Shown here: piece by piece, positions 10,979 to 40,871 of the stretch | Layout of the letters: the number at the start of each line of letters is the position of its first letter | How positions within the stretch are numbered: position 1 is the first letter of the stretch | Source of the DNA: Planctomycetota bacterium | GTDB lineage: Bacteria > Planctomycetota > Phycisphaerae > WQYP01 | Length of the DNA stretch: 54,911 nucleotides | NCBI GenBank assembly: GCA_021810145.1 | Contig: JAJZJL010000012.1 | Coordinates: 1-54,911 of the forward strand | Direction: 5' to 3' | Translations under genes and position numbers: made by a program | The notes under the pieces: generated by a model | Database searches by the model: none | The model's input: the letters and a program-made list of their open reading frames with translations, nothing else | What the model was told of the DNA's origin: nothing

Positions 10979-11479
10979 ATGCGTAGCGGAAGGTTTTTCA
11001 CGGCATTGGTGATACTGGGCTTATGGATGACGTTCTCGCTGATGCTGGCGGATCGGCAGATTGTTATCAATACCTCGCCCAGCGTCAAACCGGGTTTGTA
11101 TTGGCGTGTGGATGAAAGCCTGCGTGTGGGAACCATCATTGATTTTCGGATACCGCCCATGGCCAGAGCATATGTCCATGAGCGTACCGGGCATTTCGGG
11201 CAACATTGGTACATACTCAAGCCGATTGCCGCTGGCCCCGGCGAGCGAATTAATACTCTGGGCCGATGGCTTTATATCAATGGCCGTAAAATGGCGCGAA
11301 TCTATACCCATGATGAAAAAGACCGGCGATTACCGCATTGGCGTGCGGATTGCGTGCTTGGCCCGCAGGAATACTTTGTCTATTCCAACCGCATCTGGAA
11401 TAGTTTTGACAGCCGGTACTATGGCCCAATCTCACAAAAGCAGATCAGTGCGGTGCGTGTGCCGTTGCTGACTTGGTAA
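10979..11479 (+). CDS. TraF-like S26 signal peptidase
   Basis: A 166-residue protein with one N-terminal membrane segment (FFTALVILGLWMTFSLML). It has the S26C motifs NTSPSVKPGLYW with nucleophile Ser35, LKPIAAGPGE with general base Lys81, and the C-terminal box NSFDSRYYGPI. In IncP-type conjugation TraF circularises or trims the pilin during mating-pair formation. No relaxase, coupling protein or pilus genes are visible nearby, so this is either a remnant or a mobilisation accessory. It forms a two-gene unit with the DUF2840-like gene. Confidence 0.85.
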   Translation: MRSGRFFTALVILGLWMTFSLMLADRQIVINTSPSVKPGLYWRVDESLRVGTIIDFRIPPMARAYVHERTGHFGQHWYILKPIAAGPGERINTLGRWLYINGRKMARIYTHDEKDRRLPHWRADCVLGPQEYFVYSNRIWNSFDSRYYGPISQKQISAVRVPLLTW

Positions 11480-11536: not shown

Positions 11537-13468
11537 TCACATTGCATTGCCGGCAAACGCCAGCGAATCATCCAATTGTTCGTCCATGTAGGCAACGGAC
11601 ATGCGTTGCGTGGCGGCCAGACGCTGGGAACGGCTCTGCGCCCGGCCAATGAGAATTCCGGCTATCCAATGCGGAATCGTCGGATTTCTTGAGGCGACAC
11701 GTTTAGCCAATTTCACCAGGGTGGCAATGTGTGTGGCAAACACCTGATCTTCCAGTCCGGCAAAGACGATGTTATCTCCGGGATCTCCCTGCCGCCCCGC
11801 ACGGCCCGCAAGCTGGCGATCCACGCGCCCGGATTCATGAAGCTCTGTGGCGATCACATACAATCCGCTCGCCTGCCGGGCCTGCAAGTCCAGTCGAATA
11901 TCAGTTCCCCGGCCAGCCATATTGGTAGCCACGGTTATGGTGCCCGATTTGCCGGCTTCGGCGATGATTTGCGCTTCTTCCGCAACGCGCCGGGCATTGA
12001 GCACCCGATGCGGCAGGCCTAATGCTGTAAGACGTCTGGATAACTCTTCACTGGCATGTACGCTGACGGTCCCGGCCAGCACTGGCCGTCCGGCGTCATG
12101 GGCGAAGCGAATCTCCTCGACAATTGCATCCCACTTGTTTGATTGACTGTGGAACATCCGGATGCCGTTGTGTCGGCGGATGCACGGACGGTTTGTGGGA
12201 AGTCTCAGCATACCACGGCGGTAGACATGCCAGAGTTCCCCGCGTGCCTCGGCCAATGTGCCGGACATGCCGCTTAATCGCTGATAAAGCCTGAAAAACC
12301 GCTGAAAGCTGATTCGAGCCAGCGTTTCCTTCATGGGCTGAATCTCCAGTGATTCGCCGGCTTCCACCGCCTGGTGTAATCCGTCTCGCCAATGTCGATC
12401 AGGCATTAATCGGCCCGTGGATTCATCCACAATGACCACTTTATCATCCTGTATGACGTATTGTTTGTCCCGCAGGTAGAAATGCCGAGCCGTCAGGGTC
12501 TGGCAGACCAATTCTTCGCCGCGCCGCTGGGAGCGCCACAGACCCTCACGGCCACTACTGGAAGCCACAACTGCGTCGCGGCCACTTTCTGTAAGCTCCA
12601 CCGATTTAAATCGCGGTTGAAGGCGATAATCGCGGCCTAATGTTAAATGGCGCGCTACGTCAATGGCCTGCTCATAAGCTTGTGTTTGTTCGGGGTTGCC
12701 GGCATCACCGGAAATAATCAGCGGCGTAACGGCCTCATCAATAAGCACTGAATCCGCCTCATCCACAATGGCGGCGTATAAGCCACGTTGCACGCCATTG
12801 GATTTCTGCGCTGGTGAAAACAGTGGCCATCCGAGTCCCGACTTTGACTTTGGACGCTGGAGTTGGTCACGCAGGTAATCCGCGCACACTTCCTTATTGG
12901 TGGCATACGTGATGTCCATGGCATACGCGGCCCGGCGATCATCGGTAGACATTTCCTGCTGAACATACCCAACGGACAGGCCGGCGATGGCATATATTTT
13001 CTCGAATTCCTCCGCATCGCGCCGGGCGAGGTAATCATTAACGGTAATGACATGGCAGCCGCGTCGCCGCCACGCGTGCATAATGGCCGGAACGGTCGCT
13101 GTGATGGATTTACCCTCACCGGTGGCCATCTCGACCAGCAGGCCGTCATAAAGTGCCAGAGAGCCGGCAATCTGCACCGGAAACAACCGCATACCGGTTT
13201 CCCGGCGAATCACTTCACGAATGGCCGCCGCCGCCAGTAAGCGATCCTTTCGAGAATCACGTCCCAGATGAAACGGTATCGCCAATCGGGCCAGGCGACG
13301 TTTGAGGCGTCCATCGGATATTCCTTTGAACTTGCTTTCAAGTTGGCCGACGGCCTGAGCATTGCGCAAGTATATCTTACGATACGGTATGAGCCGTCGC
13401 AGACGGCCTATGGTACCGTGCCATGCCGCGTCCAAGCCACGCGGAATCTTTTCAACCGATTTTGGCAT
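11537..13468 (-). CDS. Short SecA-like translocase ATPase
   Basis: A 643-residue SecA homologue. Walker A is ATGEGKS (115-121), the DEAD box is VDEADSVLIDEA (about 236), and the helicase region contains NMAGRGTDI and GRAGRQGDPG. The preprotein cross-linking region lies between. Typical SecA is about 850-900 residues. Here the protein ends soon after the second motor domain, and the C-terminal linker and zinc-binding tail are missing. It is therefore an accessory SecA, not the housekeeping one. It is 11 bp downstream of the M50-fusion gene in the same unit and lies in the locus of the giant LEPR-XLL protein, so it probably powers export of that protein (inference). Confidence 0.88.
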   Translation of the reverse strand: MPKSVEKIPRGLDAAWHGTIGRLRRLIPYRKIYLRNAQAVGQLESKFKGISDGRLKRRLARLAIPFHLGRDSRKDRLLAAAAIREVIRRETGMRLFPVQIAGSLALYDGLLVEMATGEGKSITATVPAIMHAWRRRGCHVITVNDYLARRDAEEFEKIYAIAGLSVGYVQQEMSTDDRRAAYAMDITYATNKEVCADYLRDQLQRPKSKSGLGWPLFSPAQKSNGVQRGLYAAIVDEADSVLIDEAVTPLIISGDAGNPEQTQAYEQAIDVARHLTLGRDYRLQPRFKSVELTESGRDAVVASSSGREGLWRSQRRGEELVCQTLTARHFYLRDKQYVIQDDKVVIVDESTGRLMPDRHWRDGLHQAVEAGESLEIQPMKETLARISFQRFFRLYQRLSGMSGTLAEARGELWHVYRRGMLRLPTNRPCIRRHNGIRMFHSQSNKWDAIVEEIRFAHDAGRPVLAGTVSVHASEELSRRLTALGLPHRVLNARRVAEEAQIIAEAGKSGTITVATNMAGRGTDIRLDLQARQASGLYVIATELHESGRVDRQLAGRAGRQGDPGDNIVFAGLEDQVFATHIATLVKLAKRVASRNPTIPHWIAGILIGRAQSRSQRLAATQRMSVAYMDEQLDDSLAFAGNAM

Positions 13469-13479: not shown

Positions 13480-15675
13480 TTATAATCCCGTTCCCGGTTG
13501 CAGCGTTCGGCGAAGATCATTGACGATATCCATGAGCAACGACTGATCGGGCAATTGTATCCGCGCAACAACGCGCTGGCCGGGCAGCAACCGTATTTCC
13601 TCGGTCGGTTTGAATACCAGCATGAAGAAAGGCTGGGCACTCTGATCGGGCGTTTTCGCGTGCAGGCTCGGCGCAAATGGGCCACCCGCCAGGTAACTCA
13701 AAGCTGCCGAGGGAAGCTGGTTCCCTCCGCCGGGATACACTCGGATCATCGTGGCCGGAATCATCGGTGCGGGATTTCCGGGCAACCGCATTTGAATATC
13801 CTTGAAACCGGAGCGAATAATTCGGCCCGCTTCACCTTGGCCGGCAGGGGCATATACCAGCGGGTTGGTCATCTCCACCAGGGTGCCTATTCGCTCGCCG
13901 CGTTGGATATAGCTTCCGAGTTGAAGGCGTAACGTGTGATTAATCCACACACCGCCAACGGGGGCACAAATAGTCAGGTTGTTGATCCGGTTCTTGAGCC
14001 GGCGAATTTCTTGATTCAAGGCCACAATCTGGCGCGATAATATTTGCGCCATCACGGGGTTGGTGGCCAGAGCCTTGCGACGTTTGATGCGGGTTGCGGC
14101 CAGACGGGACTGGGCCTGAATTAAACTCGTCTGCAATACCGGGTTGGACAATCGCACCAACGCGATACCGGGCTGCACGGTGTGATTCAGCTTGTTGTAC
14201 CATCTCAAGAAGCCACCACTCTGGGCAAATACACCACGTTGGTGTTCCGTGCGAACAACTCCCTCCACGCGGCTGTGATGGGGCAGGGGAAGAATACCAA
14301 CGCAGATCGCTATAATGGCTACGATAGCAAGACTGATGCCGATGGCCCGCCCCCGACGATGTACCAATTCAGGGCTGGAAAGCAGATACCACCCTCCGCG
14401 CCCCAAGGGGACCAGCAGCCAGGTTGCGGCGGCAATTGTGGCCATGGTCAGCAGAAGTAGTGTCAGTTGCGGATATCGGCGCAAATTGGCCACCAGAAAA
14501 AGAATAATACCTGTGCACACCAGAACCCGCACCACCCCGGATAGCGCCAGATAAACCAACAGCCAGCGTCGCTGGCCGGAGGTCTCGCTGGGGTTGATTG
14601 CCTGTTTAATACCAAAGAGGTAACGGCGTGCCAGATACGTGGCATATTGCATGGCCCGCCCCAGCAAATTGGGTATTTCTAAAAGGTCAGCCAGAATGTA
14701 GTATCCATCGTAGCGGAGAAACGGGTTGCCGTTAAAAAACACGGTCGCCACACTGGCAATAAACATGAGATTGTAGCAAAAGGCATGAAGGGTGGATCCC
14801 GGATCACTGTAACGCCAGATAATCGCGGCAATGGCCGCCAGCGCAAATTCCATCCACATTCCGGCGGCTCCCACAATGGCTCGCCGCCATTTATCGGGTA
14901 AAAGCCAGGCACTGGAGGCATCGACATAAGGTACGGGTGTGAAAATCAGCAACATAATGCCGATGACATGTACCTCGCCCCCGGTGCCGAAACGCTTGCC
15001 GAATTTTTTGCAGGCGATGGCATGGCCGGATTCATGGACGGATTTATCGACGATAAATGCCAGCAGTAATAACAGCCAATTGTCAGGTCGCAGCAATCCG
15101 CTGGAATCAGTAAGAAGTTTTCCAGCCATTGGACCGGCGTTCAAGAGTGTATATACCGCCGTACCAATCAGCATGGTCCAGAGAATCAGTCCGGGCCATG
15201 CGAAAATCCACCCAACCAAAAATAACCCGCGTTCCAGAATTGCGTCTGGGTCAAATAGAGGCATGCGTGGAAACAGCAGATTCATTAAACGGCCCTGCAA
15301 GTCGCGATTGCGGCGGCGTTTGAAGCGATCGAACATGGCTTGGGCATCGGGTGAGGTGCCGGATTCCAGCAGGTTGTTGGACGCAAGTTGGCCCAGAAGT
15401 TCGATGACTTCTCCCTGGGTCGGTGCGTCATCACCGAGCTTGGCGTTACAGATATCCCATGCCTGGCGCACAGAGCGCGAACCATCAAGTAATCCAACCA
15501 ATGCGTATCCGGGCGTATTGAGCCGCGCGAAAGCGTTATTGGCCTGATCCTGAATAACGTGCCATAACCGCCCGCGAAAATACTGGCGGGAAATGTGAAT
15601 GCCGGCCCGCAGGCGCGGCTTCAAATCCGCCACGCGGTGCCATGATTCATGAAATGTTGACTGCCGATCCGGCAT
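13480..15675 (-). CDS. PqqD-like / M50 site-2 protease / lipoyl-domain fusion
   Basis: A 731-residue membrane protein joining three parts. Residues about 28-105 resemble a PqqD-type peptide-binding domain. Residues about 150-460 form a polytopic M50 metalloprotease with zinc motif HESGH (214-218) and a second motif NPFLRYDGYY (N317, D323). Residues about 465-731 are a periplasmic HlyD/biotinyl-lipoyl-like adaptor domain with a coiled-coil insert and the typical ICAPVGG-W and GER-G-L turns. PqqD-like domains bind peptides for modification or export, and M50 enzymes cut within the membrane. It may bind the giant's N-terminal region, cleave near LEPR and hand over to the adaptors. First gene of a two-gene unit divergent from the adaptor genes. 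Confidence 0.85.
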   Translation of the reverse strand: MPDRQSTFHESWHRVADLKPRLRAGIHISRQYFRGRLWHVIQDQANNAFARLNTPGYALVGLLDGSRSVRQAWDICNAKLGDDAPTQGEVIELLGQLASNNLLESGTSPDAQAMFDRFKRRRNRDLQGRLMNLLFPRMPLFDPDAILERGLFLVGWIFAWPGLILWTMLIGTAVYTLLNAGPMAGKLLTDSSGLLRPDNWLLLLLAFIVDKSVHESGHAIACKKFGKRFGTGGEVHVIGIMLLIFTPVPYVDASSAWLLPDKWRRAIVGAAGMWMEFALAAIAAIIWRYSDPGSTLHAFCYNLMFIASVATVFFNGNPFLRYDGYYILADLLEIPNLLGRAMQYATYLARRYLFGIKQAINPSETSGQRRWLLVYLALSGVVRVLVCTGIILFLVANLRRYPQLTLLLLTMATIAAATWLLVPLGRGGWYLLSSPELVHRRGRAIGISLAIVAIIAICVGILPLPHHSRVEGVVRTEHQRGVFAQSGGFLRWYNKLNHTVQPGIALVRLSNPVLQTSLIQAQSRLAATRIKRRKALATNPVMAQILSRQIVALNQEIRRLKNRINNLTICAPVGGVWINHTLRLQLGSYIQRGERIGTLVEMTNPLVYAPAGQGEAGRIIRSGFKDIQMRLPGNPAPMIPATMIRVYPGGGNQLPSAALSYLAGGPFAPSLHAKTPDQSAQPFFMLVFKPTEEIRLLPGQRVVARIQLPDQSLLMDIVNDLRRTLQPGTGL

Positions 15676-15969
15676 AAGGTCTCACAGTCGTACGAAAACA
15701 AAACGTCATGTTTTTACCCGATCCTCGGCATTTATGACAACTATTGGATGGTTACAGCGAACGGTAAATCCAATTTGGCGGATCCAACGATCAGAGACTG
15801 TTCTGGCGTTCGCGATTCAAGTCCGCGGGAAATCGCATATTGCAAGATGGGAATATAAAAAAATATGCCACAAATGCGCCAAAGAGTTTACACATTGGAA
15901 TCCCGATGGTAGATTCCTCCGATCATTCGACGGTTGTATACGGTTCTGGCGCTTTGTTGAGACGGAAAA
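15676..15969. promoter_or_regulatory. Divergent promoter region of the export locus
   Basis: 294 bp separate the two transcription units. A plausible forward promoter is TTTACA at 15887-15892, a 17-bp spacer and TAGATT at 15910-15915, 54 bp before the adaptor ATG. An imperfect inverted repeat, AAAACGTCATGTTTT, lies at about 15700. No gene is supported here. Confidence 0.4.
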
Positions 15970-16887
15970 ATGCCAAGCATGAAAAGAAATCCGGCTGGAA
16001 AGTACCTCTTGCTGGCTGTCACCGGCGTGATGGTGGCGCACAGCATGGCCACCCCGGTATCGGTGTCGCAAAATACGGCTTATTCAGCCGTAGCCAAGCC
16101 GTGGCGGGATGTTAATTTGTCCTTCAGCCGACCAGGGCGGGTGGTCAAAATTCTGGTGCATCGTGGGCAGGTCGTGAAGGCGGGGCAGTTGCTGGCGGAA
16201 GAAAACGATCAGCAACAGAAAATCGCCGCACAGCTCGCCAAACTCACCGCAGAGAGCACGTTGCGTATACAGGCTGCCCAGGCACAATTGGCGCAGGATC
16301 AGGTGGATCTCAAACGCACGCAGTGGGCCGCCAGTCAACATGCGGCGACGCCGTTTGAAGTTCAGCGCGCGCAACTGAAAGTGACTATTGATAAGCTAAG
16401 TCTCAAGCTGGCCGAACTGAAACATCAGCATGATCAGCTTGCATGGCAGGCGGCCAAGCTGGCGGTGCAACGGCGCAAAATCATAGCTCCATTCACCGGT
16501 GTCATTGAAGACCGCTTCATTGATGTCGGTAGATCGGTCAACGCGTTCAAAAAAGTCCTGAACATTGTGCAGGTGGATCGGCTGAGAATATTTGTGCCGG
16601 TGCCTTTGCGCATTGCCATGAAGTTGCAATTGGACCGATCAAGCACTGTAAAACCTGCGACAGGCGGTGTGGTACACGGAACCATTATCTGGATATCTAA
16701 AGTCGCGGATTCGGCCAGCAACACTCTGATGGTGGAAATTCAGGTTAACAATACTCAGCACGTACCGGCGGGCCAGCAGGTGCAGGTGGCGTTCGTTCAT
16801 CCGGCGACGGCAGCGTCCATCATCAATTCCCGGATCAGTGGTGCCGATCAAGTGTCATTATTGCCCACTGGGAGTAAAACGCAATGA
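15970..16887 (+). CDS. Periplasmic adaptor (HlyD/RND membrane-fusion type)
   Basis: A 305-residue protein with an N-terminal signal sequence (KYLLLAVTGVMVAHSMA). Then come a lipoyl half-motif (FSRPGRVVKILVHRGQVVKAG), a coiled coil of about 100 residues rich in Ala, Gln and Lys (110-190), the second lipoyl half (KIIAPFTGVIEDRFIDVG) and a beta-barrel domain. Such adaptors link an inner-membrane motor to a TolC-type channel. The last codons overlap the next gene by 4 bp (ATGA), indicating coupling. No ABC or RND pump is encoded nearby, so its inner-membrane partner is probably the M50 fusion or the SecA-like protein. Confidence 0.85.
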   Translation: MPSMKRNPAGKYLLLAVTGVMVAHSMATPVSVSQNTAYSAVAKPWRDVNLSFSRPGRVVKILVHRGQVVKAGQLLAEENDQQQKIAAQLAKLTAESTLRIQAAQAQLAQDQVDLKRTQWAASQHAATPFEVQRAQLKVTIDKLSLKLAELKHQHDQLAWQAAKLAVQRRKIIAPFTGVIEDRFIDVGRSVNAFKKVLNIVQVDRLRIFVPVPLRIAMKLQLDRSSTVKPATGGVVHGTIIWISKVADSASNTLMVEIQVNNTQHVPAGQQVQVAFVHPATAASIINSRISGADQVSLLPTGSKTQ

Positions 16888-18341
16888 GCGTGGAAACTTC
16901 CAGCCCAATTAGCTCTGTTCAAGTGCTCATACCGCAACAGCAGTGGGCGGACGTGAAGTCGCGGCTCGGCACCGCCGAGGCCAGGCTCGCCGATTTCAGC
17001 GTGGCCATGGAGGTTGCAACTGAAACCGCCGGCCTCAACCGGTTTATGGCACTGGCCATGGCCTTGTGCAATATTCTGGCCGTGCGCTACAATGCCCGCC
17101 GCGTGTCGCTGGGAATTCTGCGCTCGCGAAGTGTTCATGTCATGGCGATGAACCAGACTGAAAAAATTCTCCGGAAAATGCAGCTCGTGCGGGACATCGA
17201 AGAGGCCATGGAAGAATGTCTCGATCAGGATACCGAAATACTTTTTCCTTCCGCGGCGGATGGCAATGTTATAACGCGCTGTGCGGCAAAGATTACTTCG
17301 ATCCACGGCACGGGCACGGTATTGGCGATGCCATTGCGACGCGATGGTTGCGTGGGCGTGCTGCTGATGGAATTTGAGCCGGGGCGTAATGTTACCTCCG
17401 CCGAATTGGCCCCATTGCGATGCACGGCAACTTTGCTGACCCCCCGAATCATGGATTTGTATGAATATGACCGCTGGTTTGGTGCACGCTGGATGCGTGA
17501 TTGGCGAAAATATCTGTCAAAGCTCGTCGGCCCCACCCATACGTGGATCAAGGCCGCCGCCATCGCCATCACGCTGTTTCTGATGTGGGCGTTTTTCGCC
17601 AAAGGCACTTTTCATATTATCGCTCCATTCACCCTCGAACCCGTCCGGCAGGCACAAATTGTCGCCCCCTTTGACGGCTACATCAAAACCGTGCTGGTGC
17701 GGCCCGGCGATGCCATCGTCGCGCATAAGACCGTACTGGCCGAATTGCATACCGCCAAACTGCGTGACCAATTAGCCGCCACCCAAGCCCAATATGCCGC
17801 CTACGCCAAACAGGCGGACGTGGCACAATCGAAGGGCAAAATTGCCGATATGCAGATTGCCGATGATTCCATGAACGGTGCCTTGGCTAAAATCAGACTC
17901 CTGAAACGCCAGATCGCACACGCCGCGATTACTTCGCCAATTTCCGGGGTCGTACTGACCGGCAATCTGCTGCGCCGCATCGGATCGCCGGTGCATTTGG
18001 GTGATGTGCTCTTTAAGGTTGCACCCATTAAACCGCTGCTGGCGAGAATCAACGTGCAGGATGGCGACATTTTGTACGTCAAAACCGGTCAGACCGGCAG
18101 TCTGGCGACCGCTTCTTATCCGGCGGATAAAATATCTCTATCGGTCACGCACATCGACCCGCTGGCGATGGTCAAACATAAGCAGAATATCTTTCGCGTT
18201 CGCGCCCTGCTTGAGCATCCGCCAACCTGGTTCCGCCCAGGCATGCAGGGTACCGCCCGCATCGACGCTGGAAGCCGCCGTTATATATGGATATGGACGC
18301 GCGGACTGGTTAATTGGATTCGCATGAAACTCTGGCTGTGA
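16884..18341 (+). CDS. GAF domain - TM - HlyD adaptor fusion
   Basis: A 485-residue protein. Residues about 25-195 are predicted cytoplasmic and look like a GAF-type fold (helix, RYNARRVSLGIL strand, then GTVLAMPLRRDGCVGVLLME). One membrane span follows at 221-239 (WIKAAAIAITLFLMWAFFA). Residues 245-470 form a HlyD-type adaptor: APFDGYIKTVLVRPGDAI, a coiled coil, then ITSPISGVVLTG and a C-terminal barrel. The GAF part could sense a small ligand, or act as a docking platform for the SecA-like ATPase. It starts within the previous gene and ends 1 bp before the channel gene. Confidence 0.85.
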   Translation: MSVETSSPISSVQVLIPQQQWADVKSRLGTAEARLADFSVAMEVATETAGLNRFMALAMALCNILAVRYNARRVSLGILRSRSVHVMAMNQTEKILRKMQLVRDIEEAMEECLDQDTEILFPSAADGNVITRCAAKITSIHGTGTVLAMPLRRDGCVGVLLMEFEPGRNVTSAELAPLRCTATLLTPRIMDLYEYDRWFGARWMRDWRKYLSKLVGPTHTWIKAAAIAITLFLMWAFFAKGTFHIIAPFTLEPVRQAQIVAPFDGYIKTVLVRPGDAIVAHKTVLAELHTAKLRDQLAATQAQYAAYAKQADVAQSKGKIADMQIADDSMNGALAKIRLLKRQIAHAAITSPISGVVLTGNLLRRIGSPVHLGDVLFKVAPIKPLLARINVQDGDILYVKTGQTGSLATASYPADKISLSVTHIDPLAMVKHKQNIFRVRALLEHPPTWFRPGMQGTARIDAGSRRYIWIWTRGLVNWIRMKLWL

Positions 18342-18342: not shown

Positions 18343-20235
18343 ATGTTCCCCATTATGCCCAATATGACTGCAAGTAAATCTGTCCCCCTGCGTTTGAATC
18401 CTTGTCGGAATCAGTCCATCGGTGCGATCCCGCTGCTGCGCGTTGCTGCAATCGCCGCAGTGACATTTGGCATAGTAAGCCTGCCTGCCTGCACATCGCC
18501 GTTTGGCGACCATAGCGGCACGCCATCGGGATCCGGATTTGCCGACAGCGTTCTGGCCCATGATCTATCCGATGGCCGCTTGCTGACGCATCCTTCAATG
18601 CTGCCGGTGGATCGCGGCGTACATGAACGATTGGCAGGCTATCCGACTTCCGTTAATCGCACTGGCTCTACTGGTACCCAGGCCCCACCGGCCACGCGCC
18701 AAGCGGTAATACCAGCGGGCGTGGCGGCTCCAAGCCGTGCGGCCGTAAAAAATATCCAACTGCCGGTGAAGATGACACTCATGGAGGCCATCGCCGATGC
18801 CATGCAGCATAATTTGTCGATAAAAATCCAATCCTATACCCCGGCGATTTCAGAATCGCAGATTGTCGCCGCCGAAGCGGTGTTTGATCCCACCTTCGTG
18901 GGGCAGATTCAATATCAGCACCTGGATCAGCCGACGCCTTACGGCCAAACATTGGGCTTTTCCAATTCATCTGTGGGTATCAACAATGAAGATCAAGTCA
19001 ATTCTCAAGTGGGCTTCAAGAAGCTTCTTTCCACCGGAGGCACCGTCTCTCTGATCGGGTCAGATAACTATCAGGATTTTCATTCCTCCACCAGTCTGCC
19101 GCCGGATATAAACCCTTCGCACACTGCGGATATGGCGATTGAACTTAAGCAACCGCTGCTGCGGGGTTTTGGTGCACAAGTCAATAATGCCAACATATAT
19201 ATTGCGCGCCGCAATCAGCAAATCGCGCTGTCGGAATTCCGCGCGGAGGTTATTAAGATTGTGGCTCGCGTGGAACGCACCTATCTGCAATTTTCCCAGA
19301 CTACTTCTGACCTGCGTATTGAAAGGCAGTTGGTTCTCCAGGCCAAAAAAACCTTGCTCCGCCTGAAAAATCGCCTGCACATGGATGTCGACTCGGTGCA
19401 GATGAACCAAGCCCGGGCGGCGGTTGATCTGGCCCAATATAATCTGGCCTCGGCACAAAAGCAGGCCGGCGATTTATCCCAAACGCTCAAAGCATTGTTA
19501 AATGATCCTGCCATTCCCGTTGGCCCGGGCCCCAACATCATTCCCACCAACAAGCCTGTTGCGGTACCATTTGTCTTTGATTTAGATCAGGATATTGCCA
19601 CAGCGTTGCAGCAGCGCGGCATCATGCGGCGCGATCGCATGGCAGTAGAAAAAGCGGGAATCCGCCGTAGCGTTGCCCAGAATGCATTGCTGCCAAAAGC
19701 CGATCTCATCGCCGCTACAGATTCCGCCGGTTTATCACCCGATGGCAGCTTCCCCGGCGGATTTAACCGTATGATCTCCGACCCGCATGTCGGTTTTACC
19801 GTCGGCATGGACCTGGAAATCCCCCTTGGCAATCGGGCGGCTCGTGCCAATTTATATGGCCGGCGCATGGTGCGCCGACAAGCATTAACGCAAATGCTTA
19901 AGGACGCCCAGAATATCGCACGGGACATCGCCAGCGATCTACTGAACCTGACCCAGGATTGGCGGCAAGTCCACCTTGCCCGCCGTCGTCGCATCTCCGC
20001 CACGGCCGTGTTACGCGGGCTGGAAGTGGAGGAACTTTCCGGCCAGGCCCTTGACCCGACATTTCTGCAGTTGGAACTCAATGCTCAGCAGGACCTTGCC
20101 CAGGCGGAAATCGCCGAAGTTCAGGCACTGACCGCCTACAACATTGACATGGTAAAATTTCAACGCGACAAAGGCACATTGCTGGAATTCGATCGCGTCG
20201 CCATCGCACCGGCCCCCGCAAGAACTGAACCGTAA
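18343..20235 (+). CDS. TolC-family outer-membrane channel, putative lipoprotein
   Basis: A 630-residue outer-membrane efflux protein. A hydrophobic stretch (LLRVAAIAAVTFGIVSLPAC) ends in a lipobox, LPAC, so Cys50 is probably lipidated. After a Ser/Pro-rich linker, two OEP repeats (about residues 150-620) show long helices with heptad Ala/Leu and strands such as VGMDLEIPLGNRAARANLY. It forms the exit channel of tripartite export systems. It is co-transcribed with the two adaptors (1-bp gap upstream), and the giant gene follows after 430 bp. An alternative start at Met8 is possible. Confidence 0.9.
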   Translation: MFPIMPNMTASKSVPLRLNPCRNQSIGAIPLLRVAAIAAVTFGIVSLPACTSPFGDHSGTPSGSGFADSVLAHDLSDGRLLTHPSMLPVDRGVHERLAGYPTSVNRTGSTGTQAPPATRQAVIPAGVAAPSRAAVKNIQLPVKMTLMEAIADAMQHNLSIKIQSYTPAISESQIVAAEAVFDPTFVGQIQYQHLDQPTPYGQTLGFSNSSVGINNEDQVNSQVGFKKLLSTGGTVSLIGSDNYQDFHSSTSLPPDINPSHTADMAIELKQPLLRGFGAQVNNANIYIARRNQQIALSEFRAEVIKIVARVERTYLQFSQTTSDLRIERQLVLQAKKTLLRLKNRLHMDVDSVQMNQARAAVDLAQYNLASAQKQAGDLSQTLKALLNDPAIPVGPGPNIIPTNKPVAVPFVFDLDQDIATALQQRGIMRRDRMAVEKAGIRRSVAQNALLPKADLIAATDSAGLSPDGSFPGGFNRMISDPHVGFTVGMDLEIPLGNRAARANLYGRRMVRRQALTQMLKDAQNIARDIASDLLNLTQDWRQVHLARRRRISATAVLRGLEVEELSGQALDPTFLQLELNAQQDLAQAEIAEVQALTAYNIDMVKFQRDKGTLLEFDRVAIAPAPARTEP

Positions 20236-20665: not shown

Positions 20666-23600
20666 ATGGTTCAGGCTAAAACTAAGGCTCGGAGAAATTC
20701 CATAACACGGGCGTTGGCGCGATTACGCTCGCCGCGTATTTTCATTCCGTGGCTTTCGCAGAATTTACGTCATTTGCGACCGGATGCCTTTATGGAAGCC
20801 ATCGCGGCCATGCGCGAAGTGCGCATGAGCCGACAACGATTGCGTCGTCCGGAGCGGCAGGGGCCGAGGGTCGAAATTCTTGAACCCAGGTTGCTTTTAT
20901 CCAGCGTCAGTTGGATCGCCCCCACTGGCGGCGATTGGGGTGTCGGGGCTAATTGGAGTACCGGTACGGTTCCCGGTAGCGGCGACACCGCGATTATTGC
21001 CAGTCTCAATCCCGGGGCGCAAGTTACTTACAATACCGGCAATTCAACCGTGGCGGCAGTTCAGGCTTCCAGCCCGTTGGAAATCACCGGCGGGACGTTG
21101 ACGGTTACGGGTTCCACGCAGATAACCGGCACGACTTTGATACTCGATGGCGGGACGCTGGCGGATACCACATTATCTACAGCCAGCGGCGGGCTAATCC
21201 AGACCTTAGCCGGTTCCACGACCACATTGGATGCCGGCACGCTGGGAGGCAATACCACCCTTACCGTCGCATCGGGTTCCACGCTCGACGTTGCCGATAA
21301 CCTGACCCTCGGCAGCGGCGCAACCCTCAATGTTGATGCGGGCGGAACGCTGAATTTTGTGGATGGTACAAGCAACTCCCAGACCATTTCCGGCAGCGGA
21401 GCTATTACGCTGGATGCCGCCAGCGGTTCCTATGCGGCGGGCCAGATCAACGCCAACGGTGTCAACTCCGGCTCCCAAGTCACCTTTGACAATGGCGTGA
21501 ATATCACCGGATTGGGAACCAGCACCGCGCCAAACAGCATTACTTCAGCCAACGGCAATACAATTGTTTTCGACGGCATTGTAACCGACGCAAGCATTTC
21601 CTCGGCCAGTGGGGGAGCACTTCAGGCGAATTCAGCAACCTTTCAGGGCACAACGCTTGCTGGTTCACTTAGCATCGCCAGTGGCACGGTGACGCTGGAG
21701 GATTATTATAATTATTCGATCGGCGGACCGGATGTTGCGGGTGTTAATGCGGGCACGGTTAGCATCGCATCGGGCGCAACACTGTACATGAGTAATGAGT
21801 ATTATAACCTCACATCCTCTTGGACCAACGCTTCCGGCACGATTGACATCGCCAGCGGCGGAATCTTGAAGCTTGGCGGTGACTTCACCCAGAGTGACTT
21901 GGGCGTGATCAGCAACGTCGGTGGAACAATTGATTTCAGTGGCACGCTGACGAATACGGGACAGACGCTTTCTGAGACACTGCTAAACTCTTGGAGCATG
22001 GGCGGAGGTGCCGTCATCGAGGGGACCGTTGGCATAAGCGGGCAGGTCATAACGCTGGCAGTCTCAGCGCCACAATACTCTGGGGAATCCAACCTGACGC
22101 TGGAAGGTGTAACCGTGGACGGGACGGTGAACATCAATAGCGGTACGGTGTCGCTGGAGGACTACTACAATTACTACAGCGGGGGATCGGATGTTGTAGG
22201 TGTCAACGACGGAACCATCAACATTGCTTCGGGTGCCACATTAAACCTACGTAACGACTATTACAACCTCACGTCATCCTGGACCAATGCCACCGGCACG
22301 ATTAACATCGCTGGCGGCGGCACTCTTAACCTTGGTGGCGATTTCACTCAGAGCGACTTGGGGACGATCAACAATAGCGGTGGAACCATTGATTTCAGCG
22401 GCGCATTGACAAATACCGGCGGCAATCTTTCCGCGGCGCTGCTGAACGGATGGACAATGGACTGGGGCGCGGTCATTGGTGGAAACGTCGGAGCAACCGG
22501 CGATACCATTATAATTTCCGGTAGTTCCGGCTTGTACTTGGAGGGTGCCACGCTTCAGGGTGCGGTAACCATCAATGGCGGCTATGTCTACCTTGAGGAT
22601 TATTATAATTATTTCACTGGTGGATCGGATGTTCAGGGCGTCAATGACGGAACATTCAACGTCGCCTCCGGCGCAGCGTTGTATTTGAGTAACCACTATT
22701 ATAATTCCACTTCTTCCTCTTGGACCAACGCTTCCGGCACGATTAACATCGCCAGCGGCGGTACACTTCATCTTGGCGGTTACTTTACACAAGGCGATCT
22801 GGGGACGATCAACAATAGCGGTGGAACCATTGATTTCAGCGGCACGCTGACCAACACCGGTCAGACCGTTTCAGTTGTGCTGCTGAATTCATGGACCATG
22901 GACTATGGTACCATCATCGGCGGGACGGTTGGTGCCAGCGGGCAGACGGTAAATGTTGCCAACAATTATTTGTATCTCAACGGCGCGACATTGGCGGCCA
23001 ACTTATCCGTCGCCTCCGGCGCGACGTTGTGGATTGATGGTGGTCTGACGATGCAGGCTGGAGCCACAGTAACCATTGCATCGGGCGGTAGTCTTTGGTT
23101 TGATGGTGGCGGAACGACAGGCCAAGCTATAAGTGGTTCCGGTCAAATCGACTTGGGGTCCGGTTCCACGGTCCACATTTATTATGGGGCAATCACCCTC
23201 GGCGCTGGGATCACTTTCGCCGGTGCCGGCAATATTGTAAATCAATATGACGGCCTGCTGATTAATCAGGGAACCATTGATGCCAATGTCGCTGGCCCGG
23301 CGCTGACCATCGCAGCACCATTCCAGAATGATGGAACGCTGACCACCGCGAACGGCGGCAACCTTGCGATTACCGGTGCCAGCTTCACACTGGATTCCGA
23401 CGGCACGCTGACGGTCAACACCGGCAGCGCGGTGACGCTGGGTTCCGGCACTTCGCCATGGATTAACAGTGGAACCATCAACATATCGGGCGGCACGCTG
23501 GATATTGGCGGCTTAGTCACTACAGCCGATCTGGGCGTGGCCAATTGGAATTACACCGCAGGACAAGTGGAACTTACTGGGACCATTGACAATACGGGAG

Positions 23601-26600
23601 AGCCGTTGACGCTCAATGGTGTTACGTCTTTAATCCCGGGCGGGTTAGAATTAACGAACGGTCAGCAATGGGAAGCTGGCAGCGCATTTGATAACACTCC
23701 AATAAACATTGCGTCCAATTTCACCAGCAATTTTTCTTTTCAGCTTACGAATGCCAATGCTGATGGCTTCACGTTTACCATTCAGGGACAGGGGCCGCAA
23801 TCACTGGGTCGCGGGGAAGGAGATTTAGGTTATGGCGGTATTGAAAACAGTATCGCCGTCAAGTTTGATCTGTATCAGAATGCGAATACGGGCGATCCAT
23901 CCAACAATTCAACCGGTTTGTTTCTCAATGGAAATCAACCCTTTGGCGGCACCAGCCTGAACAGTGCTGATATCAATTTACATTCCGGCGATGTGATCAA
24001 TGTGCAGGTCAGCTATACCGCGTCCAGCAATTCGCTTGTCGTCACTGAGACGGATACGGTTACTAATACCAGTCTGACGCAAACCTACAGCGTCAATATC
24101 GCGAACTATGTCGGCCCAGTGGGTTGGGCGGGTTTCACAGCTGGCAGCGGATTCTTAACGGCGACGCAACAAATCCTTTCATGGAGCATCAACGGCTCGG
24201 CGGTTAATTTGGCCAACACCGCCAATACTTCCACCGATGTGCTGAACTTAAGCCCAACCACCACGGGTTCGTTGCTGCTGAATGGCGGTACCATCCAAGG
24301 TGGAGCCATCAGCGCTACCGGTGGCGTGGGGCTGGAAGTCGTTCCAACCGCCCCAGCGCCCATCCCCCTGGCCGACAGCGGCTTCGAGACGCCCGTTCTG
24401 GCATCGGGTGCCTACCAGCGCGAGCCTTCCGGTACTGGATGGAATTTCCCATATTACTATAGCGGAATTTCCGCCAATGGAAGCGGCTATACATCCGGCA
24501 ATTCCAACGCTCCACAAGGTAATCAGGTTGCTTTTATTGATTACTCTACCCAAATCAGCCAGAGCATCAATTTTGCCACCGCCGGGACTTACTCGCTGAA
24601 TCTTCTGGCGGCCCAGCGGGGCGGAGCTAATCTCAATGCCCAGACCCTGCAAGTCCAGATCGACGGCCAAGCGGTTTATACGTTTGTTCCGCAAGGCACA
24701 AATTATCAGCAATACACGACGCCCGCATTCAACGTTTCCGCAGGGGCACACACCATCACGATCGTGGGTCTCGACAACGCCGGCGGCGACAACACTGCGT
24801 TCATTGATTCGGTAGCGATTAATCCAGCGATAGCCACGCTCGATGGCGTAGCGCTTGATTCTAATCTCACCATCGAATCTGGCGCAACGCTGAACATCGC
24901 CGATGGCTTAACAATGGGCAGTGGTGCGGCTGTCACCGTGGACGCCGGAGCAGTGCTCAACTTCATTGACGGCACCAGTAACATCCAAACCGTCTCCGGC
25001 AGTGGTGCCATCGTTCTCGACGCTGCCACCGGTTCCTATGCCGCCGGGCAGATTAATGCCAATGGGGTCAACGCGGGGTCGTTGGTGACATTTGGAGGCG
25101 GGGTTAGCATTTCCGGGCTTGGAGCCGCGGGATCGCCGAACAACATTCATGCCGCTTCCGGCAACACTGCTATCTTTGCAGGCGACTTAGCAAATGTGGC
25201 CATTTCCGCTTCATCGGGCGGCTACCTGATTGCGGCACAACCCTGGCAGTCAACTTATGCGTTTGACGCAGTAACTGTCGCTAGTAATCTCACCATTCAG
25301 GCAGGTGATGAACTTGACATTTCCGACGGAATGACTTTGGTGAATAACGCAACGATCTTTGCCAACGGCGCGTACCGGACGATCCATTTCGTTAATGGCA
25401 CAAGTAATACCCAAACACTTAGCGGTACGGGGAATATTCAATTTTATACCAGCGGCACGGTTTATGCCAGCGGCATGGGCGTCTGGAATGCATCAAGCGT
25501 AGTTTCCGTGGGCAGCGGCATCACAATCAGTGGCGCTGGGTATATTGCCGGTAATGTCGGAGCCACTTTAATTAACTACGGCACCATTGAGGCACCAAAC
25601 ATCAACGGTCATGGATTGGCGTTCGGAGAGACGACCTTTGAAAATTACGGCACAATAGCCGTCGAATTAAATAGTACCCTTGACGTTGGCGTTACGAACA
25701 TAGTCAATGAAATCGGGGGCACAATTTCTGTGGCGGCTGGCGGCGAACTCGATCTAAATACAAATTTTGCGCCCTGGGCGGGAAGTTGGTCCAACTCCGG
25801 CACGATTACCGTCGACAGTGGTGGCCTACTGGACTTGGGTGGCAATTTCACAACGGCGGGCATTGGCACGATCAACAGCAGCGGCACGATTGATGTCAGC
25901 GGAAAACTCAACAACGCCTCAAGTACCCTTTCCGCTGGCACGCTTGGCAGTTGGATCATGGCGGGGGGCACGATCGCAGGCGGGACCATCGGCAGCAGCG
26001 GTACGACAGTCAATCTGGCAGGCTCCAGTGTAACCTTTGACGCAACGACCCTTGATTCCAACGTTACCGTAAGTGCCGGCACAACGCTGAGCATCGCCGA
26101 CGGCCTGACCCTTGGTAGTGGCGCGACCATCACCGTGGATGCTGGCGGAACGCTGAATTTCGTCGACGGCACCAGCAACGCGCAAACGGTCTCCGGCAGC
26201 GGAACCATCACTTTGGCCGCCGCCAGCGGAAGCCTCGCCGCCGGACAACTCAACGCCAACGGAGCCAACTCCGGAACATCTGTTACCGTCGGCGCTGGAG
26301 TGAGCATCACCGGCACCGGCATCGTCAATGTGGCCTCCGGCAACACGTTGGCACTTGAAGATATCGTGAACGGTGCCACGATCACCGCTGCAAGTGGAAG
26401 CGATGTCCAACTTTATAACATGACGCTGGAAAACGGTGCTATGACCATTGACTCAGGTGCCACGCTGACGCTTGAGAACAATGATCAGTATTTGATAAAC
26501 GCCACGTTGACGAATTATGGGATAGTCAACGATGTTTCGGGATGGTGGGTGTATTTTGAAGATGGCTCGACGGTCAATAACGCGGTCGGCGGTGTATTTA

Positions 26601-29600
26601 CCATAACCAGCGACGATTGGTTCCAGCCCGGACTTTACAACGACCCCTCATCAATGGCGTTTAACAATGCAGGCACACTGAATATTGATATCCCGGAGAC
26701 GTATTTTGCAGCTGAATTTCTGCCGTCCGGCAGCGCCAATGTATACTTTGACAATACCGGAACGGTAAACGTCAACCAGGCAATTTTACAACTTGGGCAG
26801 CCGGGCGGCAATATCGGCCAGCCGGGCAATAGTTGGAGCAACACCGGCACCATCACCGTCGCCAGTGGCGGAACGCTTAATCTTGCCGGCAATTTTACGA
26901 CCACCGACATCGGAACGATTAATAGCAGCGGAACTATTGATTTCAGTGGGAAGCTGACCAATACAAGCAACACCCTTTCCGCGACGACATTGAACACATG
27001 GACAATGGACGGAGGTGACATCATCGGTGGGACAGTTGGCACCTCCGGGCAAACGGTTAATCTGACCGGTTACTCCGTGACGCTGGATGGTGTGGCACTT
27101 GATTCCAATCTGACCGTCGCCTCCGGCACGACGCTGAACATTGCCGATGGCTTGACGCTCGGCAGCGGGGTGACCATCACCGTGGACGCCGGAGCAGTTC
27201 TCAACTTCGTCGACGGCACGACCAACACGCAGACCATTGGCGGCAGCGGCAGCATCGTCCTCCAAGGTGCCAGTGGAAGTTATGCGCCAGCGCAAGTTGC
27301 CGTTGATGGTGCTGCCGCCGGATCATCAGTCACCTTCAACAATGGCGTGAGCATACAAGGACGTAGTGAAATAGCCGTGCTTGATGTCGCGGCCCACAAC
27401 ACCCTGATCTTCGATGACACCATAAGTCAACTAACCCTGAGCGTGGCCTCCGGCGGTTATCTGCAAACGGGCGGTCAGTCCACGATCGGAACACTGGACA
27501 CGGTAACGCTTGCTTCCAGTCCAACCCTTCTCGGCCCGTCCGATGTGGATGTCACGAACAGCTTGGGATTGCTTAACGGCGCGATGCTGACCGTTGATGC
27601 GGGCTCGACCGTGAATTTCGTAGACGGTTCGAGTAATTCACAAAGCGTGTATGGCATAGGCTCAATTACTTTAGGAGCCGCCAGCGGTTCCTACGCTGCC
27701 GGGCAGATCAACGTCGATGGGACTGTGGCTGGTTCTTCAGTGACATTTAATAATGGCAACAATATCACCGGCCCGGGTGGTGTCACCGTCGCATCCGGCA
27801 ACACAGTGATTTTCGATGACTCTGTAACCAACGCCCTTATTTTCGCCGCCAGCGGCGGAAATTTGCAAACCAACGGCACTTCATCCACTCCGGCAATCTT
27901 TGACAGCGTAACGCTGGGTACGAACAGCAACCTCAATGTCGCCTCTGGCGCAACTCTTGACATCGCCGACGGCCTGACGCTTGGCAGCGGCGCGTCGATC
28001 ACGGTGGATGCCGGGGCGAACCTCAACTTCATCGACGGCACCAGCAACATCCAAACCGTTTCCGGTAATGGCACCATCATGCTGGATGCCGCCATCGGTT
28101 CCTACGCCGCTGCACAACTCATCGCCAATGGCACCAGCCTAGAATCATCGGTCACCTTCGCCAACGGCGTGAATATCACCGGCGGCAACATTGCTGTCAG
28201 CACCGGGAATACGTTGAGCCTCGACAACTACGTTGCCAGCGCCGGTATTTCGGTGGCTGGCGGTGCCACGCTCGACCTGCCCGGTGGCTGGAGCGTTGCC
28301 AGTGACACGATCACCATCTACAGTGGCGGAACGATGAACCTCGGCGGTGTGGTATACGGCGATCAGGATATTGGCACGCCGGGAATTGCCAGGGCGGCTG
28401 TTTATTCACCAGGCTCGGGGAATTGGAGTGTTTCCGGAACTGGCAGCGGCATCGGTGGTACCAGCGATCAATTCAACTACCAAAGCCAGTCATGGACCGG
28501 CGATGGAACAATCATCGCGAACATCAGTTCAATGAGCAGCATCAATACCGGTGCCCAGGCTGGGGTGATGTTCAGCGGCTCCGCCGATCCGGGCGCGATG
28601 TTCGCCGGTGTATTTATTACCGGTGGTGGTGACGCCGAATTTCAGTGGCGAACCGCCGACGGTTCCACTGCTCAGACCGTTCAGATTGGATCAATCAGTG
28701 CCCCGCGATGGATTAAGCTGGTTCGCGCCGGTAACAGCTTCAGCGCATATTACTCCAGTAATGGCCTTAGCTGGACGCAGATTAGTTCATCCCAGACAGT
28801 GAGCATGGGCAGCACCGCCGTGGCGGGGATGGCAGCGGCGAGCGGCGACAATACCACTTCCAATTCAGCCATTTTCAACAATGTAGAGTTGTACAGCGCT
28901 ACGGAGATATGGAATGCGGCCACGATCAGCACAGCTACAGTGATCGCTTCAGGAACCCTCGTGTACGTTGAAAATGGACTGACATTCACAAATAATGCCG
29001 CGTTGACGCTTGATGCAGGCGCGCAGCTCGATTTTATTGACCCCACGGGAACTTTCAGCAGTCAGACGGTCGGTGACAGCGGCAGCAGCGGCAGCAGCGG
29101 CAGCAGTATTATCCTTGATGCCGCCTCTGGTGGTTATGCGGCCGGGCAAATAAATATTGACGGCACCACCAATAACTCTCAAGTCACGTTCCAGGTCAAT
29201 ATCACTGGCCAAGTACCCGCGGGTACCATTCCCGGTGCGATTACCGTCGCGACGGGCAATACTCTGGTTCTCGATGATACGACGGACGGTGTGACGATGA
29301 ACGCGTCCGGCGGTGTGGTCGATGTGGCCGGTGGAACAACAACAACGATCGACAACAATGCGGGGATTACTAGTTCCGGAACAGGGCAAATTCAATTGAC
29401 CGGCGGCCAGTTGTCCATTGATTCCAGCCAAACGGTTGGCGCTCTTAATATTACCGGCGGGAAACTGACCCTTGACGCCAAGTTAAGCGTCAATAGTCTG
29501 AATTTCAATAGTGGGGTGATCGAAAGCGGTGGCACGGGGAGTCTGTTGTCGCTGACCGGTACGGACAACTGGAATGGTGGCACGCTGGACGTGGCCACGA

Positions 29601-32600
29601 CGGTGACCGCCGGCGCGACACTGAATATAACGGCTTCCACCGGTTACCTATACTTGGGCGGCCTCGGCGGTGGTGTGACCCTTAGTACCAGTGGCGGCAG
29701 CACTGGTGGCGTGATTAATCTGACGAGTCCGACCTACAATGTGCTGATGTACAGCGGCGACGAGATCAACAACGCCGGAACCTTTGACATCACCGGCGGC
29801 GCGGGCTTCCAGTTGCAAAACACAGGTTCGGCAACATTCAACAATTCCGGCCAGTTGGAGAAGACAGCCGGCACAGGAACCGCTACTTTCAACAGCGGGG
29901 TGCTGCTGGACAACGTGGTGGACAGTACGCAAGCGGGGACCGTCACAGTGGACACCGGCACGTTGCAGATCGCTGGCGGCGGATACAACGCCAATACCGG
30001 TACCGGTAGCGACGCGGCGTTCACGGCGGACGGCGGGTACTTGCAGTTCAGCGGCGGAACGTTCACGCTCCATGCCGACACGACGATGAACAGCGTCAGC
30101 AGCAGCAACCTGCAGCAGATCGAGTTCGACGGTGCAACAATCACGGTTGACGCCGGTGACACCCTGAGTGTAAACGGCCTCAACTTCAGCAGCGGCGTAA
30201 TCAACGGATCCGGATTGGTATCGCTGACCGGTACAGACAACTGGAACGGCGGCACGCTGGACGTGGCCACGATGGTGACCGCCGGCGCGACACTGAATAT
30301 AACGGCTTCCACCGGTTACCTATACTTGGGCGGCCTCGGCGGTGGTGTGACCCTTAGTACCAGTGGCGGCAGCACTGGTGGCGTGATTAATCTGACGAGT
30401 CCGACCTACAATGTGCTGATGTACAGCGGCGACGAGATCAACAACGCCGGAACCTTTGACATCACCGGCGGCGCGGGCTTCCAGTTGCAAAACACAGGTT
30501 CGGCAACATTCAACAATTCCGGCCAGTTGGAGAAGACAGCCGGCACAGGAACCGCTACTTTCAACAGCGGGGTGCTGCTGGACAACGTGGTGGACAGTAC
30601 GCAAGCGGGGACCGTCACAGTGGACACCGGCACGTTGCAGATCGCTGGCGGCGGATACAACGCCAATACCGGTACCGGTAGCGACGCGGCGTTCACGGCG
30701 GACGGCGGGTACTTGCAGTTCAGCGGCGGAACGTTCACGCTCCATGCCGACACGACGATGAACAGCGTCAGCAGCAGCAACCTGCAGCAGATCGAGTTCG
30801 ACGGTGCAACAATCACGGTTGATGCCGGTGACACCCTGAGTGTCAAAAACCTCAACTTCAGCAGCGGTGCGCTCAACGGACCTGGATCGGTGTCGCTAAC
30901 CGGCACGAGCAACACCTGGAGTGGCGGGACCGATTATGCCGCATTGACAGTCAACGCCGGGGCTGTTCTGGACACCGCCGGAAACGTGACAGCCGGCGGC
31001 GCATTGAATAACAGCGGCGGCACGGTGGAGGCAACTACCGGTACGTTGCAGATTGCCGACGGCGGCGTGGACAGTGGGACATTCGGTGCGGCTGGAGGTG
31101 TCATCGATTTCAGTGGTGGTATCAGTACGCTGGACGCGGGGACCGCACTGCAAGCTTCGGGCACAAGTGCCATTGAGTTAACCGGAGGCACATTGACATT
31201 CAACGCGGCAATCATCGCCAACAACCTGACGATGACCGGAGGAACGCTAACCGGGAATGCCAGCGGCGCGTTGACACTGACAGACATCGGAAATTGGAGC
31301 GGGGGAACCATTTCGGTGCCAGTGATCGTGGACGCCGGTACCACCCTGAACATCGCCGGCAACGACACTCTCAGCTCCACGACACTCACCAATGACGGCG
31401 GCGCGATCAATTTAAGCGGCACGCTGAATAACAGCGGTTCAACACTTCTGGACACCTCGACTGCCGGTTCATGGAACGTCAATAATGAGACGGTTACCGG
31501 CGGAACGATCGACGGGAGTAACGGCCCGGTTGCTCTTTCCGGCTCCAGCCAAACCAGCCTGACCTTGAGTAATGTGACGTTGGCCGGGACGGTCAATATC
31601 GACGGCGGTATGAACGTCTATTTCCCCGGTTCAAACGGCTTGTACCTCCAGACGGGCGCGGTGCTGAATCAGGGGGTATCATCCCTTTACCTCTTCACTT
31701 CCAGCGGCGGAGCGGCACCGCTTGCTGTTCTACCCGGATCAAGCGGCGGCTTTACCCTGACCAATACCACGAGCGGTTTGCTCAGTGCCGCATCATATAG
31801 CGGCGGAACGGCAACGCTAACCGGCGGATTGCTCATTAGCGGAGATGGAATCATTGCCAGCGACTTGGGAAATATTGATAGCGCCGCCACGATCGACCTC
31901 AACGGTCTGGTCGTAGTTGAAGCGACCTCAAACCAATCTTCCCCACTTTTTAACAACATCGGCACAATCGAAGGGACGGGCCAATTTGATGTGGCGAACA
32001 ACGGTGTTGGAACCGCCGTCAACAGTGGCACGATCATAGGAAATGTTTCGGGACAAATGTTGGAAGTGCTGGCATCGACAATGTCCAGCACGGGATCGCT
32101 TGCGGCTTCCGGTGGGGGGTATCTCAACGCCGATATCCGAACACTCACCTTGCTATCCGGGGGCAGCGTTACCATTGGCAGCGCTAGCGCATTGGCTCTT
32201 GGCCAAGCCGGGGGAACTGTCACTAACGCCGGTGCCATCGCAAATGATGGCGGTTTACTGAACTTGGTGGATAACGGAAACTTGGCAACCCTGGACATCT
32301 CCAATTGGACGAACAACGGATACGGAACCACCACCGTCAGCGGAACGCTCAATGATTCCGGTCTCGGTTTCTCCGTCGCGGCCGGAACGACGGGACCGGT
32401 CACCATCGCCCCCAGCGCAGCGCTCAATATCGGAGGAAATCTGGCGATTGGAAACAGCGAGACTTTGACAATCGAGGCGGGCGGCATGTTGAGTTTCGAC
32501 AGCAGTCCCGGAATCAGCCAAGACGTCAGCGGTGCCGGAAGCCTTATCCTTAACGCTGGCGACGTGTACGCGATCGCCGGACAGGTGAACGCTACCGGCG

Positions 32601-40389: not shown

Positions 40390-40871
40390 TGGTATCGCTC
40401 CTCGCCAATCCTAATCTTCCGCTGGGCAGTTCCCAAAGGACCGCCGCGGGCACAAACGGATGGCAGCCGCCTGTCGGTGACCGGAACGCATACAGCAACA
40501 GCGCCGGCAACGTTCTCCAGAGCGGAACGAACTCCGGCTCCAGCACGGAAGTTTCCGGCACCGGCCTGAATCCAGGTGCGATTGTCGGTGTAAAACTGGA
40601 CGGCACCGATTACAACTTAACAAGCTGGGATGCGTATAACAATGCCGGTGCGCAATATCCCGTGTTCACGGGGATGGTGCATGTGTCGCAACTTACCGCA
40701 GGGGTGAATTTCTCCTATAATGCAAGTTATGATGACACCCTTGCACTCAGCGATTACACGCTTACCGGCCCGCTGGGATCAGCACCGTGGAACGATGGCC
40801 TGTTCCAAGAGCTTAACCAAAGCATCATCGGAAACTTTAGCTCAGGAGACAGTTATGTGCCGGGATCGTGA
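40386..40871 (+). CDS. Orphan C-terminal module 1 (internally deleted)
   Basis: A 161-residue protein starting ATGATG over the previous stop. It opens with MMVSLLANPNLPLGSSQ, matching the junction inside the giant protein, then GLNPGAIVGVKLDGTDYN. Its last 40 residues (LTGPLGSAPWNDGLFQELNQ onward) match the end of the module at 46042-46495, not the middle of the domain. About half the module has therefore been lost by an in-frame deletion. There is no signal peptide. The stop region contains the start of the next membrane protein (17-bp overlap). Confidence 0.65.
   Translation: MMVSLLANPNLPLGSSQRTAAGTNGWQPPVGDRNAYSNSAGNVLQSGTNSGSSTEVSGTGLNPGAIVGVKLDGTDYNLTSWDAYNNAGAQYPVFTGMVHVSQLTAGVNFSYNASYDDTLALSDYTLTGPLGSAPWNDGLFQELNQSIIGNFSSGDSYVPGS

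Follow-up and report, generated by a model that had tools for sequence, protein, structure and literature searches.

A PqqD-like, M50 and HlyD-like fusion protein as candidate core of a leader-guided export route for giant bacterial proteins

A single polypeptide that joins a PqqD-like domain, an M50 protease and an HlyD-like periplasmic adaptor forms, we believe with moderate confidence, the core, at the inner membrane, of an export system that resembles type I and serves large proteins carrying an FExLEPRxLLSA leader, a system in which the leader would be bound and then trimmed by the M50 domain, with a SecA-like motor and a conduit of adaptors and TolC. The question addressed is by which route bacterial proteins of 4,000-13,000 residues that have no recognisable export signal leave the cell. 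The polypeptide is encoded in a 54,911-nucleotide stretch of DNA from a Planctomycetota bacterium (contig JAJZJL010000012.1), here called the window, and all positions refer to that stretch. The features on which the argument draws are as follows.

11537..13468, minus strand: SecA-derived ATPase, 643 aa, with DEAD motor, preprotein cross-linking and P-loop domains (Pfam)
13480..15675, minus strand: PqqD-M50-HlyD fusion protein, 731 aa (P0001), a single ORF with an ATG start
13558..14271, minus strand: HlyD/EmrA-like periplasmic adaptor region of the fusion, residues 469-706 (profile match to EmrA and CusB)
14704..14727, minus strand: NPFLRYDG, residues 317-324, with the third zinc ligand D323 (invariant)
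15022..15036, minus strand: HESGH zinc site, residues 214-218 (H214, E215 and H218 invariant wherever an aligned relative covers the site)
15367..15561, minus strand: PqqD/RRE-like domain, residues 39-103 (Pfam PF05402 match, sequence-based)
15676..15969, no strand: intergenic stretch separating two divergent gene sets, M50/SecA-like on one side and adaptor/TolC/giant on the other (gene coordinates)
15970..16887, plus strand: RND-type periplasmic adaptor, 305 aa (TIGR01730, 116 bits, above cut-off)
16884..18341, plus strand: HlyD-type adaptor with an N-terminal extension, 485 aa (PF13437, 1e-14)
18343..20235, plus strand: TolC-type outer-membrane protein, 630 aa (PF02321, 6e-23)
20666..39898, plus strand: giant protein, 6410 aa, the predicted substrate, with legume-lectin, fibronectin III, bacterial Ig and cadherin-like domains
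20837..20914, plus strand: N-terminal leader block RLRRPERQGPRVEILEPRLLLSSVSW of the giant (profile A5, E 1.3e-10)

The initial annotation had read the three parts of the fusion, in this order and with intact HESGH and NPFLRYDG motifs, from one polypeptide, and both the order of Pfam matches and an alignment of relatives bear this out. In the window protein, PqqD (PF05402) spans residues 39-103 (profile positions 2-67 of 67) at E 0.0016, below the gathering cut-off, Peptidase_M50 (PF02163) spans residues 204-320 at E 3e-5 (23.8 bits against a cut-off of 27.2), and HlyD_3 matches residues 568-651 weakly; hydrophobic stretches fall between residues 150 and 468, ahead of the adaptor region. Among 19 orthologues scanned with Pfam, PqqD and M50 are matched in all (best E 1e-5 and 9e-9, respectively) and HlyD families in 10 (best E 2e-13). 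Set against solved structures, a profile built from the 19 orthologues matches EmrA (1.6e-7), CusB (4e-5) and also MacA over its C-terminal third, and it is through these profile matches only that the barrel-sandwich and helical-hairpin architecture of an adaptor is seen in the HlyD part; the same profile reaches a PqqC/D structure at E 0.1. AlphaFold models of the fusion were poor (pLDDT 38 and 47, from an input depth of 5 near-identical sequences).

The initial annotation had also singled out H214, E215, H218 and D323, and these residues are invariant wherever they are covered among 22 aligned sequences (one of them a fragment), down to 28-29% identity. Ten alpha- and gammaproteobacterial relatives keep the zinc motifs, with a distal motif of the NP/SP...DG/DS type in which SP replaces NP in the relatives from E. 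coli and Azospirillum. Mean pairwise identity is highest in the M50 region (0.64), against 0.56 in the PqqD-like and 0.39 in the HlyD region. In near relatives the reading frame is open and 85-96% conserved, and the source genome (a 4.47 Mb draft) holds a second copy that is 86% identical and is likewise followed by a SecA-like gene. A chance ORF was considered and rejected, given this conservation in relatives and the two copies in the same genome. Judged by its sequence, the three-domain PqqD-like/M50/HlyD-like fusion is real.

What would such a protein act on? The giant encoded at 20666-39898 has an N-terminus that reads ...RQGPRVEILEPRLLLSS, and a leader of this kind is common to proteins near the fusion and SecA-like genes in sister loci (RQGPVFERLEERIMLSA, RQGPIFEPLENRIMLSA, RQGPRFEVLEQRLYLSG, RRRPVFEPLEPRLLLSG and RQGPVLEQLEQRIYMSS). 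The motif corresponds to the LEPR-XLL domain (NF012209), which scores 13.3 bits on the window giant, just under the cut-off of 17, and 15.9 and 18.4 bits on proteins that neighbour the pair in sister loci. Taken alone this model is too weak, matching 7 of 14 control genomes as well at E 10, and a degenerate DNA pattern for LEPR gave no match; the protein profiles A1 and A5 were used for the leader in place of the DNA pattern. Across 44 distinct leaders, conservation takes in F-E at -3/-2, LEPR, xLL, S and A and then falls off. Note that positions 0, +1, +3 and +5 to +7 were fixed by the search pattern, so that conservation there is inflated; the positions left free by the pattern have E at -2 in 41 of the 44, P at +2 in 34 and A at +8 in 25. 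The conserved block closes with S-A just after LEPRxLL, which would suit a recognition element and a cleavage site alike. In 42 of the 44 leader proteins the region before the motif holds no hydrophobic signal stretch; over the leader proteins, the median best 15-residue Kyte-Doolittle value is 0.22 upstream and 1.07 at the motif.

Leader and fusion go together across genomes. We ran the leader profile A5 (21 seeds, drawn from the window's family and from alphaproteobacterial plasmids) and the fusion profile A3 on the same 392 planctomycete genomes and, at a leader threshold of E 0.01, find the leader in 44 of 98 fusion-positive but only 2 of 294 fusion-negative genomes (p 3e-28), both exceptions being partial matches. 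For the genomes of the class that were listed, the figures are 19 of 21 with the fusion versus 1 of 20 without, where one of the 20 (G411) was scored leader-negative on the grounds that it was absent among the matches listed. Because the A5 seeds came partly from the window's family, both profile searches were repeated in a family of 163 genomes that had given no motif seeds: here 80 of 107 genomes with the fusion carry the leader, as do 4 of 56 without it (p 1e-17), and counting by genus, which is the more conservative approach since the genomes are related and the p-values overstate their independence, the split is 45 of 56 versus 2 of 18 (p 2e-7). Within the window's own family it is weaker (14 of 17 versus 4 of 11, p 0.02).

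The correspondence has gaps on both sides. At E 0.01 the leader is not matched in 54 of the 98 fusion-positive planctomycete genomes, diverged fusions included, which may reflect the shortness of the motif or fusions with other substrates, and seven genomes, several of them incomplete, have leader proteins with no fusion detected. Many genomes are incomplete and some scans scored few candidates per genome, so that copy counts are lower bounds. The link to the LEPR motif that the initial annotation suspected has nevertheless turned out to be strong: given the co-occurrence in the 392 genomes, its recurrence in the family of 163 and the giants on plasmids described below, a substrate link between leader and fusion is well supported.

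On alphaproteobacterial plasmids the fusion and SecA-like genes lie near adaptor and TolC genes and near giants that bear the leader. Six giants beside the fusion carry LEPRLLLAAD, LEPRVLLNAD, MEPRVLLSAD, LEPRFLLSAD, LEPRLLLSAD and IEPRILLSAD; the first of these, in Alisedimentitalea (plasmid NZ_CP123586.1), lies in frame upstream of the annotated start of the giant, in an ORF that extends upstream. Four further plasmids have METYEPRLLLSAD (a variant outside the search pattern), LEPRYLLSAD twice and LEPRLLLSAD. Counting as one the two LEPRYLLSAD giants, which are close relatives of each other (from Ensifer and Sinorhizobium), the leader or a close variant is present in all nine distinct alphaproteobacterial giants with a readable N-terminus, a count that leaves aside the giants of strain M382 and R. 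johnstonii, whose N-termini lie beyond the stretch read. RefSeq already labels several of these giants LEPR-XLL.

The second partner of the fusion is the SecA-derived ATPase, whose gene lies 11 bp downstream of the fusion gene. Its residues 33-579 match solved SecA with 434 bits, the motor motifs are intact, and Pfam recognises PF07517 (9e-91), PF01043 (8e-27) and PF21090 (3e-50). The same search gave no match to the wing/scaffold (SecA_SW, PF07516), the alignment to NF006630 stops near position 605 of 789, and the intact orthologues range from only 638 to 712 aa. The part absent from this truncated SecA is the part that SecA uses for pushing chains into SecY.

Phylum-wide score counts of the SecA-like protein are confounded by housekeeping SecA, and we therefore assessed the pairing by adjacency to the fusion gene rather than by score. 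Among the 46 strongest fusion matches in planctomycetes, at least 29 have a SecA-like gene within 600 bp, and 17 have none within that distance among the matches listed. In the 28 genomes of the window's family, the SecA-like protein is present with a close fusion homologue and absent without one, the exception being a genome in which the SecA-like genes sit at contig ends, which cut the locus. Gene order shows the two genes adjacent on plasmids of Alisedimentitalea, strain M382, Methylosinus, Pontibrevibacter, Mesorhizobium and Pseudohalocynthiibacter and separated by a single gene (SapC family) on a Pseudosulfitobacter plasmid; on three Rhizobium plasmids and in Ensifer and Sinorhizobium the matches lie close together, going by tblastn positions only. 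Across 22 loci the two proteins have correlated pairwise distances (r 0.97), partly through shared species history. The initial annotation had called the pairing with a giant and a SecA-like ATPase unusual; the planctomycete matches and the alphaproteobacterial plasmids reveal it instead as a conserved state. It is conserved without being universal, since no SecA-like gene lies in the neighbourhood read around the fusion in Thalassospira or around its relatives in E. coli and Azospirillum. In one further genome, codon W274 of the fusion is TGA and the SecA-like frame is shifted, and no leader is matched there even at E <= 1. This may be a natural knock-out of the pair, although it is one draft genome and an assembly error is possible.

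The clusters on E. coli and Azospirillum plasmids, with a DUF4347-type giant, TolC, adaptors, HlyD and M50-HlyD, resemble the system described here in that an M50-HlyD protein occurs together with adaptors, TolC and a giant, which starts with LESRQLFDGA or LEPRFMFDAA. Beyond the missing SecA-like gene, they differ in that Pfam does not detect PqqD in the E. coli M50-HlyD protein, where the region is similar by eye. Matches to the E. coli cluster, which was read on an IncF plasmid, occur in 24 of 5426 genomes of the species and are mostly plasmid-borne.

In most loci of the window's family, the fusion and SecA-like genes stand without adaptors, TolC and giant next to them. Neither in the window nor in the annotated alphaproteobacterial plasmid clusters that were read is there an ABC exporter gene next to the pair. 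Two alphaproteobacterial counterparts of the 485-aa adaptor have GAF domains at the position of its N-terminal extension, and in five alphaproteobacterial clusters a gene for a small DUF3467 protein lies between the giant and adaptor genes. Several other observations concern the window itself. Near the 3' end of the SecA-like gene there is a TraF/S26-type signal peptidase gene (10979-11479). The giant contains a long internal repeat of near-identical sequence, and a VVFVHGINSD...VVAHSYGG stretch close to its C-terminus resembles an alpha/beta hydrolase. Short ORFs at 40314-40871, 41379-42395 and 46040-46495 repeat its C-terminal part (VGVQLDGIDYNTATW-like), with an IS66 transposase at 43200-44951 among them, and look like duplicated or broken C-termini of the giant.

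The best NCBIfam match of the fusion is the daptide intramembrane metalloprotease NF041824, which aligns over residues 40-422, so that the combination of PqqD and M50 is an arrangement already known. In daptide clusters an RRE is fused N-terminally to a site-2 protease to which leader removal is assigned, and the leader motif is ELExMEAP (PMC10036551). The fusion shares with these proteases (MpaP/DapP) the PqqD/RRE domain N-terminal to the site-2 protease; unlike it, they have no adaptor domain and act on a short RiPP substrate, and its score (138.9 bits) is far below the NF041824 cut-off of 300. By analogy, the fusion may work like the daptide protease without being a member of that family. 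With type I secretion (ABC transporter, HlyD, TolC) the locus has in common adaptors and a TolC-type channel beside very large surface-type proteins that lack a Sec signal, but here the signal lies at the N-terminus, an M50-adaptor protein forms the membrane core, the ATPase is SecA-derived and no ABC gene lies beside the pair. The ATPase resembles SecA and SecA2 in its motor, preprotein cross-linking and P-loop domains and its intact motor motifs, and departs from them in the missing wing/scaffold and in being encoded with an M50-adaptor fusion. LEPR-XLL proteins, finally, have their motif at the N-terminus, as do the window giant and its relatives; the literature searched mentions the domain and links no secretion machinery to it.

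Might the M50 domain serve mainly as a membrane anchor or gate of the adaptor complex, with the leader acting as a targeting signal that M50 leaves uncut? Conservation of the leader block could be due to recognition alone, leader cleavage is so far something we infer, and leader proteins lack the transmembrane leader that is the usual substrate of a site-2 protease. We nevertheless regard this as unlikely: HExxH and the distal Asp do not vary, even at 28% identity and among the proteobacterial relatives, which is hard to account for without catalysis, M50 is more conserved than any other region (0.64 against 0.39 for HlyD), and the daptide homologue is assigned leader removal (PMC10036551). 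Alternatively, export may be Sec-dependent, with the SecA-like protein serving as an accessory SecA alongside SecYEG and the fusion acting at a later step, in the membrane or the periplasm. NCBIfam models exist for the known accessory SecA2 proteins, and the match of the motor, cross-linking and P-loop domains to solved SecA at 434 bits would suit such a role. If this were so, we would not expect the wing/scaffold to be absent and every intact orthologue to be as short as 638-712 aa, nor most leader proteins to lack a Sec-type hydrophobic core, and we consider this reading quite unlikely.

Site-2 proteases are frequently engaged in regulated intramembrane proteolysis or in clearing signal remnants. 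Imagine that the fusion did the same on other substrates, its association with giants reflecting co-transfer of surface genes: the GAF sensory domains on the neighbouring adaptor in alphaproteobacteria and the absence of adaptors and TolC from next door in most loci of the window's family would fit, but the leader co-occurs genome-wide even where leader genes are unlinked to the pair, and the protease is fused to a periplasmic adaptor, which makes this scenario highly improbable. Least probable of all, to the point where we give it scant credence, is that the substrate matured and exported by the fusion is a small RiPP and that the giant is unrelated. The daptide protease is the fusion's best NCBIfam match and RREs are typical of RiPP systems (PMC10036551); against this, 138.9 bits is far under the family cut-off of 300, the annotated loci read have no RiPP-modifying enzyme beside the pair, and the leader is carried by large proteins.

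Leader-guided export with removal of the leader is the simplest reading, because the adaptor is fused on and because TolC, adaptors and a SecA-type motor are nearby. The PqqD-M50-HlyD fusion would here stand in place of an ABC transporter. Its cytoplasmic PqqD/RRE-like domain would bind the leader in the manner of the daptide RRE-protease, and the product of the neighbouring gene, the truncated SecA-like ATPase, would act as motor, gripping and feeding the chain. The M50 domain would take the leader off at the membrane, and the fused HlyD domain, the separate adaptors and the TolC-type channel would together lead the chain across the envelope. The idea in the initial annotation that the fusion binds, cuts and hands over fits the evidence, with the cut itself being what we infer.

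The export system is apparently undescribed: we found no description of it in the partial literature library searched. Going further, we suggest tentatively, and with rather less confidence than we attach to the role of the fusion, that Planctomycetota and Alphaproteobacteria share an undescribed pathway for giant-protein export, in which an N-terminal FExLEPRxLLSA sorting signal is read by an RRE-site-2-protease-adaptor protein and the SecA-derived motor no longer uses SecYEG. If true, the linkage of signal and machinery would make part of a genome's secreted set predictable from N-termini, and RRE-guided leader recognition would no longer be confined to small peptides but would include the largest proteins of bacteria. 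A SecA-derived partner without the SecY-engaging region would be the second unusual feature of such a system.
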